Below are positions 33,835 to 37,871 of a stretch of 64,000 nucleotides of DNA, one piece after another (the stretch's first letter is position 1; every line of letters starts with the position of its first letter). The position numbers and the translations under genes are program-made. Location: positions 145,992 through 209,991 of the forward strand of contig QCGP01000001.1 in assembly GCA_003279845.1 (NCBI GenBank), read 5' to 3'. The stretch is from Prochlorococcus sp. AG-388-F11 (lineage in GTDB: Bacteria > Cyanobacteriota > Cyanobacteriia > PCC-6307 > Cyanobiaceae). The notes below the pieces were generated by a model. The model was given only the letters and a program-made list of their open reading frames with translations. It made no database searches and was not told the origin of the DNA.

Positions 33835-35031
33835 ATGACGCCTGAAAGGCTTGGATTACTTTGGGGAATAACTGTATTTGCAGGTGCTTGTGCTCGATTA
33901 TTTTCTTCTTTTACAGGATTTCCCAGTGTTGTTATTTTATTGCTTTCTGGATTATTAGTCGGAAGATCAGGTTTAGGCCTTGTTGAGCCTTTAGATCTTG
34001 GTCAAGGGCTTGAAACGATTGTAGGGCTTTTAGTCTGCTTGGTTCTATTTGAAGGGGGACTAAATTTAAAACTGCCTGATGGAAATATAAGAAATACTGT
34101 TTTGAAAATTTCATTAGTAAGACTTTTTATTTCATTATCTGCTGGAATTTTTATTGCTCATTGGCTGGCAGGCCTTTCATGGCAAGTTGCAGGAATATAT
34201 AGTGCCATAGTTCTAGCTACCGGCCCAACTGTTGTTTCTCCACTAGTAGAACAAATAAAATTAGCTTCCCCTCTTTCGGAAGTTTTAAAAGCTGAAGGGT
34301 TGTTACTTGAACCAATTGGTGCAGTACTAGCATTATTACTTTTAGAACTAACATTAGGAGATCTACGTGGGATTAACGATGTATTTATTGCATTAATGCA
34401 AAGATTAGGAGGTGGAGTTTTAATCGGATTAAGTGCAGGATGGTTACTATCAGAAATTTTAAAAAAAATAAAAAATGAAGCATCATTTGGGATAGAGTTA
34501 CAAGTTACTCTCGGATTTATTTTTCTTGTCTATGGAATTTGTGAATATTTTTTGCCAGAGTCAGGGTTGCCTGCTTCAGTAGCGGCAGGTTTTATTGTGG
34601 GCAAAAGAGAAGTAATAGATAAGGAGAGATTGGATAATCTAATAGGTGAATTAGCTCAATTAGCGATAACAGTTCTTTTCCCTCTTTTGGCAGCTGATGT
34701 TTCTTGGGGTGAATTAAGTCCACTAGGTTGGGGTGGGGTTGTCTGCGTTTTTATGTTGATGGTAATTGTTCGTCCTATCTCAATTTGGATAGCAACAATG
34801 GGAAGAGAATTAAACTTCAAAGAAAAAGTATTTTGTGCTTGGTTAGCTCCAAGAGGTATCGTGACTGCGGCGGTAGCCTCTCTTTTTTCTATAAGATTAG
34901 AACAGGCTGGTATCCTTGGGGCTGGACGTCTTCAAGGTCTAGTATTTCTTACTATATTAATGACGGTAGGAATCCAAGGTATTACAGCTAAACCTTTGGC
35001 GAACAGGCTTGAGTTAGGCCAAAAAAATTAG
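33835..35031 (+). CDS. Cation/proton antiporter (CPA1/NhaP-type)
   Basis: A 398-residue polytopic membrane protein with ~12 helices in the Na+/H+ exchanger family. Features include FTGFPSVVILLLSGLLVGRS at the start, VLFEGGLNLKL, the ion-site region IVLATGPTVVSPLVEQIKLA with the nearby LKAEGLLLEPIGAV, and the late motif WLAPRGIVTAAVASLFSIRL. It lacks the long cytoplasmic tail of eukaryotic NHE. It probably exports Na+ or K+ for pH and salt balance. The stop overlaps the convergent gltX by 4 bases. The 164-base upstream spacer is A+T-rich with no gene visible. Confidence 0.88.
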   Translation: MTPERLGLLWGITVFAGACARLFSSFTGFPSVVILLLSGLLVGRSGLGLVEPLDLGQGLETIVGLLVCLVLFEGGLNLKLPDGNIRNTVLKISLVRLFISLSAGIFIAHWLAGLSWQVAGIYSAIVLATGPTVVSPLVEQIKLASPLSEVLKAEGLLLEPIGAVLALLLLELTLGDLRGINDVFIALMQRLGGGVLIGLSAGWLLSEILKKIKNEASFGIELQVTLGFIFLVYGICEYFLPESGLPASVAAGFIVGKREVIDKERLDNLIGELAQLAITVLFPLLAADVSWGELSPLGWGGVVCVFMLMVIVRPISIWIATMGRELNFKEKVFCAWLAPRGIVTAAVASLFSIRLEQAGILGAGRLQGLVFLTILMTVGIQGITAKPLANRLELGQKN

Positions 35032-36467
35032 ATTAATTTGAGACATCTTTCAATTCGCAATATATCACTTTTATTTTCAGAGAAAAGTTCCCAACTTTGA
35101 ACTAAATCTGGCCCATTTAGAGAACCAAAAAAGGCTACTCTTAATGATTTCATTAAAATCCCTTTCTTAACGTTATGGATTTTTGATATTTCGTTTATTA
35201 TTTCTTTTGCGTTCTCTTTGTCCAGTTTTAAAGCACTTTGCTTAGTTAAATAATTTAAGATTAGTATTAGAGATAGTTCGCCATTATTATTTACAAGGAA
35301 ATCTTGACCTTCTTTTTCAATTCTAGGCAATACGAAAAATGGTTTCGATTGTTCAATGGCGTCTTTTAAAAGAATCATCGAGTCTTTAATCAAAATTACT
35401 AATTTAATAGCCCATTCTTTAGTTGGCGGTTCCCAACCCATATTTTCCCAGTATTTCAATATGATCCCACTTAACTTTACTGATTCCATGTTTTTTATGT
35501 ATTGAGAATTAATCCAGTTTAGTTTTTCCCAACTGAATTTAGCTCCAGCTTTATTTATATCTGCTAACTCAAAAATTCTAGATATTTCATGAAGTGAAAG
35601 TATTTCACTTTCGGTAGATTTTGGTGACCAACCTAGAAAGGCCATATAGTTCGACAAGGCCTCAGGTAAATATCCCATTTCTCTAAATTCGTCGATTGAA
35701 GTGACGCAATCTCTCTTTGATAGTTTTTTCCCTTCGCTATTAAGTATTAGAGGTGTATGTGAAAAAGTCGGCAGTTTGAAATCTAATGCTTCATAAATTA
35801 ATATTTGTTTTGCAGTATTAGAGATATGGTCTTCACCCCTTACTACATGAGTGATATTCATGAAATTATCATCAATTACAACTGCAAGATTATATAAAGG
35901 ATCTCCAATCTCGTATCCCATAGCCCTTCTTGATAAAACTAAATCACCACCTAAGTCCCTCCCTTGCCATTTGATTTCACCTCTTATCTGATCTATCCAT
36001 TTTATTTGAATTTTTTCGTCAATTTTAAATCTTATTACGGAAGTCCTTCCTTGGGATATGAATGTTTCAATTTCTTCTTTAGAAAGATTTCTGTGCCTAT
36101 TATCATGCTTTGGAGGTAATCCTTTCTTTTTTTGTTCTTCCCTTAATTTAGAAATCTCATTTTCTGTAGTAAAGCATCTATATGCATTTCCAGATTCTAG
36201 AAGCTTTTTGATGTATTTTTTGTGAATTGAAATTCGGTCACTTTGCTTTATGGGATCTTCATCCCATTTAAGTCCAAGCCATTTCAAACCCTCTAAAATA
36301 TTTTCTGTGTATTTAGATTTAGATCTAAGAAAATCTGTATCTTCTATTCTTATGAGGAACTTTCCTTCTATTTTTTTTGCATATAACCAGTTAAATAATG
36401 CTGTTCGAGCTGTTCCAATATGAAATAAACCCGTTGGACTTGGGGCTAATCTTAAACGTTTTTCCAA
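35028..36467 (-). CDS. gltX: Glutamyl-tRNA synthetase
   Basis: Class I aminoacyl-tRNA synthetase. It also supplies glutamyl-tRNA for tetrapyrrole synthesis, which connects it with hemL and hemC in this window. The HIGH-type motif is SPTGLFHIGTARTALFNWLY and the KMSKS-type motif is GKKLSKRDCVTS. VVDDNFMN-like sequence (AVVIDDNFMNITHVVRGEDH) sits between them. At 479 residues it is standard. It lies 17 bases downstream of tRNA-Asp, at the end of the minus-strand translation block. Confidence 0.96.
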   Translation of the reverse strand: MEKRLRLAPSPTGLFHIGTARTALFNWLYAKKIEGKFLIRIEDTDFLRSKSKYTENILEGLKWLGLKWDEDPIKQSDRISIHKKYIKKLLESGNAYRCFTTENEISKLREEQKKKGLPPKHDNRHRNLSKEEIETFISQGRTSVIRFKIDEKIQIKWIDQIRGEIKWQGRDLGGDLVLSRRAMGYEIGDPLYNLAVVIDDNFMNITHVVRGEDHISNTAKQILIYEALDFKLPTFSHTPLILNSEGKKLSKRDCVTSIDEFREMGYLPEALSNYMAFLGWSPKSTESEILSLHEISRIFELADINKAGAKFSWEKLNWINSQYIKNMESVKLSGIILKYWENMGWEPPTKEWAIKLVILIKDSMILLKDAIEQSKPFFVLPRIEKEGQDFLVNNNGELSLILILNYLTKQSALKLDKENAKEIINEISKIHNVKKGILMKSLRVAFFGSLNGPDLVQSWELFSENKSDILRIERCLKLI

Positions 36468-36484
36468 ATTTTCCTTAGAAAAAA

Positions 36485-36558
36485 CGGGACCGACGGGATT
36501 CGAACCCGCAACTTCCGCCGTGACAGGGCGGTGCTCTAACCAGTTGAACTACGGTCCC
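36485..36558 (-). tRNA. tRNA-Asp (GTC)
   Basis: A full cloverleaf on the minus strand. Acceptor arm GGGACCG pairs with CGGTCCC, with a G discriminator. The D-arm is GTTCAACTGGTTAGAGC, the anticodon stem CCGCC/GGCGG encloses CTGTCAC with anticodon GTC, and the T-arm contains GGGTTCGAATCCC. The CCA end is not encoded. It lies between the hyperconserved-protein gene and gltX on the same strand. Confidence 0.96.
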
Positions 36559-36702
36559 AAATATTGTTCTAAAATTAATTAGAACTTCATTCTTAAAATT
36601 ATCAGATCATAATACTTAATTAATGTTGTTGTAATAAAATAATTTTTTTAATTTGAGGATTTAAAGAAATTGTTTGATGTAGAGCTGGCTTAACATTAAT
36701 AA

Positions 36703-36897
36703 CTATTTTTGCGGTCTAAAGCCAGCAGGTTCTATCAACCTAACTTGATTACCTCTGGCGGTAAATTCTCTTCCTTGGTCACTTTGTACGACAACTCTTC
36801 CACCAGACTTAACTCTGATGACTCTTGCACGAACCCATCCTAAGGCGGCTGATTCGAGGACTTTTACTACGTCCCCAGGTTGAAGATCTAACTCCAT
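36703..36897 (-). CDS. Hyperconserved small SH3-like protein of picocyanobacteria (PSHCP)
   Basis: A 64-residue protein reading MELDLQPGDVVKVLESAALG, then WVRARVIRVKSGGRVVVQSD, then QGREFTARGNQVRLIEPAGF. I recognise this from memory as the protein reported to be essentially invariant across Prochlorococcus and marine Synechococcus. It is described there as SH3-like and as associated with ribosomal protein L2 and PSI assembly proteins; treat that as recalled literature. The short beta-rich, Gly/Val-rich pattern fits an SH3-type barrel. By hand count its coding GC is about 46%, far above the surroundings, consistent with strong constraint. An upstream in-frame start would run into tRNA-Trp and is rejected. 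Neighbours are all translation genes. Confidence 0.85.
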   Translation of the reverse strand: MELDLQPGDVVKVLESAALGWVRARVIRVKSGGRVVVQSDQGREFTARGNQVRLIEPAGFRPQK

Positions 36898-36933
36898 CTT
36901 ATGAAAAAAATGATTTACATAATGTTGATTAAA

Positions 36934-37006
36934 CGCGTCGTGGAGGACTTGAACCCCCGACATCAGGTTTTGGAGACCTGCGTTCTACCAACTGAACTAA
37001 CGACGC
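36934..37006 (-). tRNA. tRNA-Trp (CCA)
   Basis: A cloverleaf on the minus strand. Acceptor arm GCGTCGT pairs with ACGACGC, with a G discriminator. The D-arm is GTTCAGTTGGTAGAAC, the anticodon loop CTCCAAA in stem CAGGT/ACCTG gives anticodon CCA, and the T-arm holds GGGGGTTCAAGTCC. CCA is not encoded. It lies 53 bases downstream of rplS and 36 bases upstream of the hyperconserved-protein ATG, so all may be cut from one transcript. Confidence 0.96.
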
Positions 37007-37059
37007 ATCTAAGTGATTATAGGCGCCTTTGTGACCAATAAGTAGATTAATTTACAACT

Positions 37060-37530
37060 TTATCGATCAAAGCGTTGTTTTACGCGAGTAGCTTTTCCTA
37101 CTCTATCTCTTAGATAGAATAACTTAGCTCTTCTTACTTTACCTCTACGTTCAACTTTTAGAGAGGCAACTTGTGGACTATGTAGCATAAATACTCTTTC
37201 AACACCTATGCCTTGGAAAATTCTTCTAACTGTAATTGTTTGGTTAAGACCCCCGTGTCTTTTTGCGATTACAACACCTTCATAAGGTTGAACTCTTTCT
37301 TTGTTACCCTCTGTAATTTTTACTCCAACTTTAACAGTGTCCCCAACATAAATTTCAGGTAATTCTTTTTTTGCTTGTTCATTCTCAAATTCCTCAATAA
37401 TGTTGGAAGAACTTATTGTTTTTGTAGTTTCGGAAACCAAGTTTTCCCCTTCTGTTTCGACTGCCACATCAATTGATCCATCAGGTTTAATGCCGGTTTC
37501 TAATTCATTTTCTTGTTTCTCTTTGGCCAT
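37060..37530 (-). CDS. rplS: 50S ribosomal protein L19
   Basis: Ribosomal protein at the 30S-50S interface. The core begins at about residue 57 ([16 protein letters not shown]) and contains [40 protein letters not shown] and the C-terminal [20 protein letters not shown], all diagnostic. Compared with the ~115-residue E. coli protein there is an acidic N-terminal extension of about 50 residues, predicted to be disordered. It heads the translation block with tRNA-Trp, the hyperconserved protein, tRNA-Asp and gltX. Confidence 0.95.
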
Positions 37531-37562: not shown

Positions 37563-37871
37563 TTAACCCTTCGACTCGCCTTTAGTAACCTTTTTGGTAA
37601 ATGAAATTGTTTTTGAAAACATTTGGAATCCCGTTATAAGCATCCACAATACTCCAAGAGAATTTAATAATACGTATATTAATTCTCCATTATCTCCAAG
37701 CCACTCGCCCTCGTGAAGCGACATTAACCAATGAACTTGCTCTCTAGAGTAACCCAGTAAGTCTTTTGAAACCCTATAAAGTAGCCCAGTAATTGAAGAT
37801 AAAAATAATGGAAGGAAAATCCAAGGCGCCAAAACTTTATGAAATTGCCTAGAATTAGTTAAAAATTTCAT
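37563..37871 (-). CDS. PepSY-associated-type small membrane protein, 102 residues
   Basis: Two hydrophobic helices (about residues 13-30 and 62-85) flank a hydrophilic segment with SREQVHWLMSLHEGEWLGDN. The N-terminal helix SRQFHKVLAPWIFLPLFLSS and the HEGEW motif resemble PepSY-associated membrane proteins of cyanobacteria. Their function is unknown, and some relatives sit with iron or redox proteins. It lies 32 bases upstream of rplS on the same strand and is divergent from map (91-base spacer). Confidence 0.72.
   Translation of the reverse strand: MKFLTNSRQFHKVLAPWIFLPLFLSSITGLLYRVSKDLLGYSREQVHWLMSLHEGEWLGDNGELIYVLLNSLGVLWMLITGFQMFSKTISFTKKVTKGESKG

Follow-up and report, generated by a model that had tools for sequence, protein, structure and literature searches.

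The window analyzed here is a stretch of 64,000 nucleotides from Prochlorococcus sp. AG-388-F11, the genome assembly of which amounts to 1.5 Mb. Arranged on its minus strand are, in order, rplS, tRNA-Trp, a gene for a 64-residue protein, tRNA-Asp, and gltX, and the small gene is the subject of this report. The open reading frame (ORF), tRNA, and profile calls agree on the strand and order that had been read from the letters in an earlier model annotation (the original prediction), and the identities of rplS and gltX were confirmed by Pfam and NCBIfam profiles. The coordinates are provided in Table 1.

The small gene encodes PSHCP, the hyperconserved protein (hcp) of Prochlorococcus and marine Synechococcus, which is a known protein of 62 to 64 residues with a solved Tudor fold. 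Residues 1 to 56 are 100% identical to PDB entry 6NNB (E 2.9e-31), and the original prediction was thus correct in recognizing a protein reported to be invariant in these organisms. The same five-gene order has already been published for hcp, and the 64 residues observed in the window versus the 62 of hcp are in keeping with a published C-terminal variation of two residues (PMC4215834).

Table 1 Features of the PSHCP locus (positions in the window, except for the last row, where they are those of the individual loci)
Feature	Position	Strand	Basis or remark
rplS, ribosomal protein L19, 156 aa	37060..37530	minus	ORF; TIGR01024 156.4 bits, PF01245 156.4 bits
tRNA-Trp (CCA)	36933..37007	minus	ARAGORN; Rfam RF00005 68.8 bits
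Leader, 35 nt, tRNA-Trp to PSHCP start codon	36898..36932	minus	sequence conserved across loci
PSHCP coding sequence, 64 residues + stop, ATG start, Tudor/SH3-like barrel	36703..36897	minus	ORF; PDB 6NNB match
PSHCP codons 2-9, little synonymous variation across the family	36871..36894	minus	codon comparison; psaC and other genes alike
Spacer, PSHCP to tRNA-Asp, 143 nt, length variable in the family	36560..36702	minus	
tRNA-Asp (GTC)	36484..36559	minus	ARAGORN; Rfam RF00005 68.5 bits
gltX, glutamate--tRNA ligase, 479 aa, TTG start	35028..36467	minus	ORF; TIGR00464 525 bits
FMN-reductase-like ORF	L099:990-1493; L079:937-1452; L087, L089, L100-L104	minus (L099, L079)	

The title of 6NNB, which names a Tudor domain, an AF2 model (mean pLDDT 83.3), and the structural matches (VIA) agree on a five-stranded SH3-like barrel; the matches considered were the best 50 of 1381 for Foldseek and 50 for VIA. 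The best Pfam match is to SH3_1 (E 1.3e-4), its score of 21.9 bits lying just below the cut-off of 22.9. Tudor domains that read methylated lysine or arginine do so by means of a cage of four or so aromatic residues. The only aromatic residues in PSHCP are Trp 21, Phe 45, and Phe 60, and unlike the Tudor domains of TDRD3, PHF1, and SMN it cannot form a typical methyl-reader cage; it is, in addition, a stand-alone bacterial protein. The C-terminal Tudor of UvrD and the RID of Mfd are likewise bacterial Tudor-like barrels, but, unlike PSHCP, each is a domain within a repair protein that binds RNA polymerase (PMC7585439).

The coding GC content of PSHCP is 45.8%, in accord with the ∼46% counted by hand in the original prediction, whereas the aligned parts of rplS and gltX have 36.1% and 32.5%, respectively. 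The corresponding third-position values (GC3) are 31%, 20%, and 25%. Across 121 loci, the GC3 of PSHCP tracks that of gltX with r = 0.93, which argues against the raised GC content as a sign of gene transfer; much of it is accounted for by amino-acid composition.

The picocyanobacteria are among the most abundant phototrophs of the ocean, and PSHCP is one of their very constant proteins. A total of 135 loci was collected, with one genome (G114) included twice and with low-scoring genomes sought on purpose, such that the set is non-random; two loci are cut inside the gene, leaving 133 that are complete. Residues 1 to 60 are identical in 118 of these. The other 15 differ at one position (eight loci), at three (one locus, with a shorter N-terminus), or at five (six loci, all from the G508 group, with changes including V10L and L19M). 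The claim of invariance therefore holds as near-identity and not as exact identity. Residues 61 and 62 are Arg-Pro in 123 of the 133 loci. Note that the 121-locus set excludes loci with other residues at these two positions and is accordingly biased there, as is a set of 60 loci drawn from it. In those 60 loci, which differ by more than 10% in coding sequence, the mean identity is 0.80 at the nucleotide level and 0.995 at the amino-acid level. When conservation was compared in matched sets of 26 to 30 genomes, the values were 0.992 to 0.998 for PSHCP, 0.988 for psaC, 0.960 for rpsL, and 0.908 for rplK. The constancy of PSHCP is thus comparable with that of PsaC and does not set it apart.

In a sample of 386 genomes from the phylum, all strong matches to PSHCP (E ≤ 4e-35) fell within the window's own family, and outside of this picocyanobacterial family none rose above chance, the best other match having an E-value of 0.004 in one genome. 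Within the family, PSHCP was truly matched in 363 of 400 genomes and in 246 of the 250 with at least 90% completeness and at most 5% contamination, after removal as chance of 10 of the 373 raw matches (E 0.17 to 0.55), three of them in the 250-genome group. A protein search gave 170 clusters, and the 120 listed were all PSHCP at 89 to 100% identity, including two proteins from Paulinella at 95% and 89%. Judging from the 386-genome sample and the 120 clusters listed, PSHCP does not extend beyond the picocyanobacteria and the related chromatophores. A tblastn search of 50,697 phage records gave no phage-borne copy, and of 34 stretches in IMG/VR that fit a peptide pattern, none was confirmed as PSHCP.

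The four well-assembled genomes in which PSHCP was missed provide no convincing case of true loss because the locus is missing or broken in each. Both rplS and gltX are missing from G711. In G511, rplS is missing and gltX is matched only in part, and in G680, rplS and a partial gltX both lie at contig ends. The least clear of the four is G521, where the contig stops 28 nt beyond rplS. Another contig of this genome, contig 51 (L109, L110), carries tRNA-Asp and a complete gltX, and at its start these are immediately preceded by a stray 38-residue fragment of rplS on the opposite strand; the fragment is probably an artefact of assembly at a contig end.

The adjacency of rplS, both tRNA genes, and gltX, on which the original prediction leaned, was confirmed in the loci collected. 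The five genes lie on one strand in 129 of the 135 loci (128 before a longer stretch was read for L091). In the other six, a contig end interrupts the locus, and the linkage thus holds wherever there is no such break. The distance from tRNA-Trp to the ATG is 33 to 36 nt in 119 of 133 loci, and that from PSHCP to tRNA-Asp ranges from ∼90 to 1500 nt. Nine loci carry, between PSHCP and tRNA-Asp, an ORF resembling an NADPH-dependent FMN reductase (PF03358, by a Pfam check on two of the nine). They include the loci of the genus that splits first in the MutS2 tree described below, and the gene may have belonged to the locus from early on and later disappeared from Prochlorococcus.

Part of this neighborhood is found outside of the family. 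Among 30 genomes belonging to other cyanobacterial families in the class, tRNA-Trp follows rplS in 29, and the order continues with secE and nusG in 27. In the assembly that contains the window, a different contig carries nusG together with rplK. One outgroup genome of 2.8 Mb (G036, locus L039) displays rplS, tRNA-Trp, a gap of 204 nt, and tRNA-Asp. The gap contains, as judged by eye, a terminator-like hairpin; PSHCP is absent from it, and gltX is absent from the next kilobase. A tree of MutS2 was calculated for 30 of the 40 genomes searched (16 family rows, G036, and 13 other outgroups). It places G036 between the family and these 13 outgroups (99/98) and makes G508 the first split inside the family (97/95). 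The arrangement in G036 is thus a candidate for the state that preceded insertion. Given the wide occurrence of rplS-tRNA-Trp and the lack of PSHCP in G036, the PSHCP gene was probably inserted, in the stem lineage of the family, into a gap already present between tRNA-Trp and tRNA-Asp, as judged from this one genome, and part of the translation neighborhood is likely older than PSHCP. Provided that the tree is rooted among the other outgroups, the simplest account has secE-nusG disappearing from this place, and the two tRNA genes becoming adjacent, before PSHCP entered. The term "secE" is absent from the main text of the paper that published the gene order (PMC4215834), and the literature was searched no further on this point.

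The position of secE-nusG raises another explanation, namely that PSHCP is the relic of a KOW domain, derived either from the nusG once downstream of rplS-tRNA-Trp or from MutS2. Besides the order in the 27 outgroup loci, KOW folds appear among the structural matches listed for PSHCP, two weak genome-search matches (E 0.12 and 0.22) lie within KOW segments of MutS2, and the one-pair E-value from hhalign against MutS2 is 0.0042. The hhalign probabilities, however, are 3.4% for MutS2, 0.09% for NusG, and 0.08% for L19, the unrelated controls SecE and L11 giving 0.16% and 0.04%; the PSHCP profile is nearly without diversity, such that the test is a weak one. For the profiles, 26 of the 31 NusG loci and 20 of the 30 MutS2 loci passed a motif filter. 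Furthermore, the 45-column alignment with MutS2 is out of register with the barrel, nusG is still present elsewhere in the window's genome, and mutS2 occurs in all 40 genomes searched. At the position of the loop that docks onto uS10, PSHCP has the polar stretch SDQGR versus Phe 165 in NusG (by hand alignment only). No convincing sequence homology connects PSHCP to the KOW domains of cyanobacterial MutS2 or NusG, and unlike the KOW domains of MutS2 and Spt5/NusG it is a separate protein. As far as this weak test goes, descent from NusG, MutS2, or L19 appears very improbable.

The leader of PSHCP is conserved in sequence, and codons 2 to 9 show little synonymous variation against a codon-usage null calculated from gltX, even where the GC3 of gltX exceeds 0.9. 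Codon 2 is GAG in 56 of 58 loci and codon 4 is GAT in 58 of 60. The normalized synonymous excess (F) for the 60 loci is 0.61 in codons 2 to 9 versus 0.11 after codon 14. These features might mark an RNA element specific to PSHCP such as an autoregulatory binding site or the target of a small RNA. Because the null ignores shared descent, control genes were employed, several of which (rplJ, acpP, fabF, rplA, glmS, and rpsG) are what we take them to be from their sequences. The F-values for codons 2 to 9 were 0.68 to 0.88 for psaC, 0.59 for rplJ, 0.47 to 0.53 for rplK, 0.41 for acpP, 0.35 for fabF, 0.34 for rplA, 0.21 for rpsL, 0.17 for glmS, 0.10 for rpsG, and 0.06 for gltX. A strict start motif skipped 3 of 30 psaC and 11 of 30 rplK sequences, and it was the use of all 30 that gave the lower values of 0.68 and 0.47. 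The freezing is thus stronger in psaC than in PSHCP, with rplJ, rplK, and acpP intermediate. Over the whole gene, the mean z for synonymous excess is alike for PSHCP (7.05) and rplS (6.83). In E. coli, slow synonymous change in the first ∼10 codons is known (PMC12725619), and RNAalifold revealed no conserved structure over 59 loci (z −1.3 to 0.3). A PSHCP-specific element is therefore very unlikely. PSHCP belongs with those genes that have a strongly constrained start region, as would befit an abundant protein.

The near-fixation of codons 2 to 9 in psaC can be seen across L296-L325, where the GC3 of gltX runs from 0.22 to 0.92 and five codons are the same in 27 of 27, or in 27 to 30 of 30, sequences. 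The loci that served for comparison of the start region in rplK and its neighbors (L356-L385) and in rpsL (L326-L355) gave graded values.

With respect to function, a hypothesis that PSHCP is ribosome-associated and possibly involved in photosystem assembly was put forward in 2014 (PMC4215834), and the title of a 2019 paper names its Tudor structure and RNA-binding function. The description of the locus as a poorly described system is consequently out of date; the observation was accurate, and its interpretation was already in print. New here are the extent to which gene and linkage are present, a likely history for the locus, and the comparison with psaC, together with two readings that found no good support, a KOW origin and a specific RNA element.

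We consider it about an even chance that PSHCP, the sequence of which hardly varies in the family and the gene for which was likely inserted in the stem lineage, is an accessory protein that binds RNA in association with the ribosome. It would sit on the ribosome with RNA as its ligand in the cell, namely tRNA or rRNA bound close to L2 on the large subunit, and its near-total constancy would result from contact with unchanging RNA and protein surfaces. What the present data show of this is the identity with the solved chain, the presence in 246 of 250 genomes, and the fixed gene order. From published work, L2 was pulled down with PSHCP, its expression parallels that of translation genes, and it amounts to 8 to 26 fmol per µg of protein, of the same order as the 20 to 71 of RbcL (PMC4215834). 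Weighing against such a role are the general adjacency of rplS and tRNA-Trp and the adjacency of the two tRNA genes in G036, a neighboring lineage without PSHCP. A ribosome- or tRNA-linked job, as proposed in the original prediction, matches the 2014 hypothesis (PMC4215834), but the gene-context argument for it is weaker than it looked: the gene was probably inserted beside older translation genes, and gene order by itself deserves less weight.

In an unlikely variant, PSHCP would be a recently acquired, lineage-specific ribosomal protein that arose once in stem picocyanobacteria and was frozen in sequence by being buried near L2 between RNA and protein surfaces that stay constant, the separation of rplS-tRNA-Trp from secE-nusG having left the gap for it between the two tRNA genes. 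Were this true, the gain of a ribosome component could be placed on the tree.

The pull-downs recovered, in addition to L2, PsaD and a Ycf48-like protein in three strains (PMC4215834), a reading repeated in a review (PMC4823308). PSHCP could thus function in photosystem biogenesis by connecting newly made thylakoid proteins with assembly factors, Ycf48 among them, with RNA binding as its means of staying near translating ribosomes, and its constancy is about that of psaC. Yet translation genes adjoin it in every intact locus. Other cyanobacteria have Ycf48 and PsaD as well but, in the 386-genome sample, no PSHCP, and this role for the protein is rather improbable.

In every intact locus, PSHCP is flanked by two tRNA genes, with tRNA-Trp at the short spacing noted above, which would suit a tRNA-binding chaperone or processing factor that prefers the tRNAs encoded beside it. 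The RNA binding named in the 2019 title is consistent with this, and that paper is said to describe a preference for tRNA over DNA and a site at Lys 30. The same two tRNA genes are, however, adjacent without PSHCP in G036, and an abundance near that of RbcL (PMC4215834) would fit a general partner better than one specific to tRNA. Such a factor appears quite unlikely, and association with the ribosome is preferred.

As to transcription, PSHCP has been reported to be co-transcribed with rpl19 and the tRNAs, the long transcripts constituting a small share, and a figure legend in the same paper proposes a promoter 12 to 14 bases upstream of its start (PMC4215834). A promoter scan of the region in the window gave one site versus a mean of 2.4 in shuffled sequence, fewer than expected by chance. 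Upstream of rplS, an ORF of 102 residues at 37563-37871 (minus strand) matches a PepSY-associated transmembrane region (PF03929), scoring 30.4 bits where the cut-off is 28.8.

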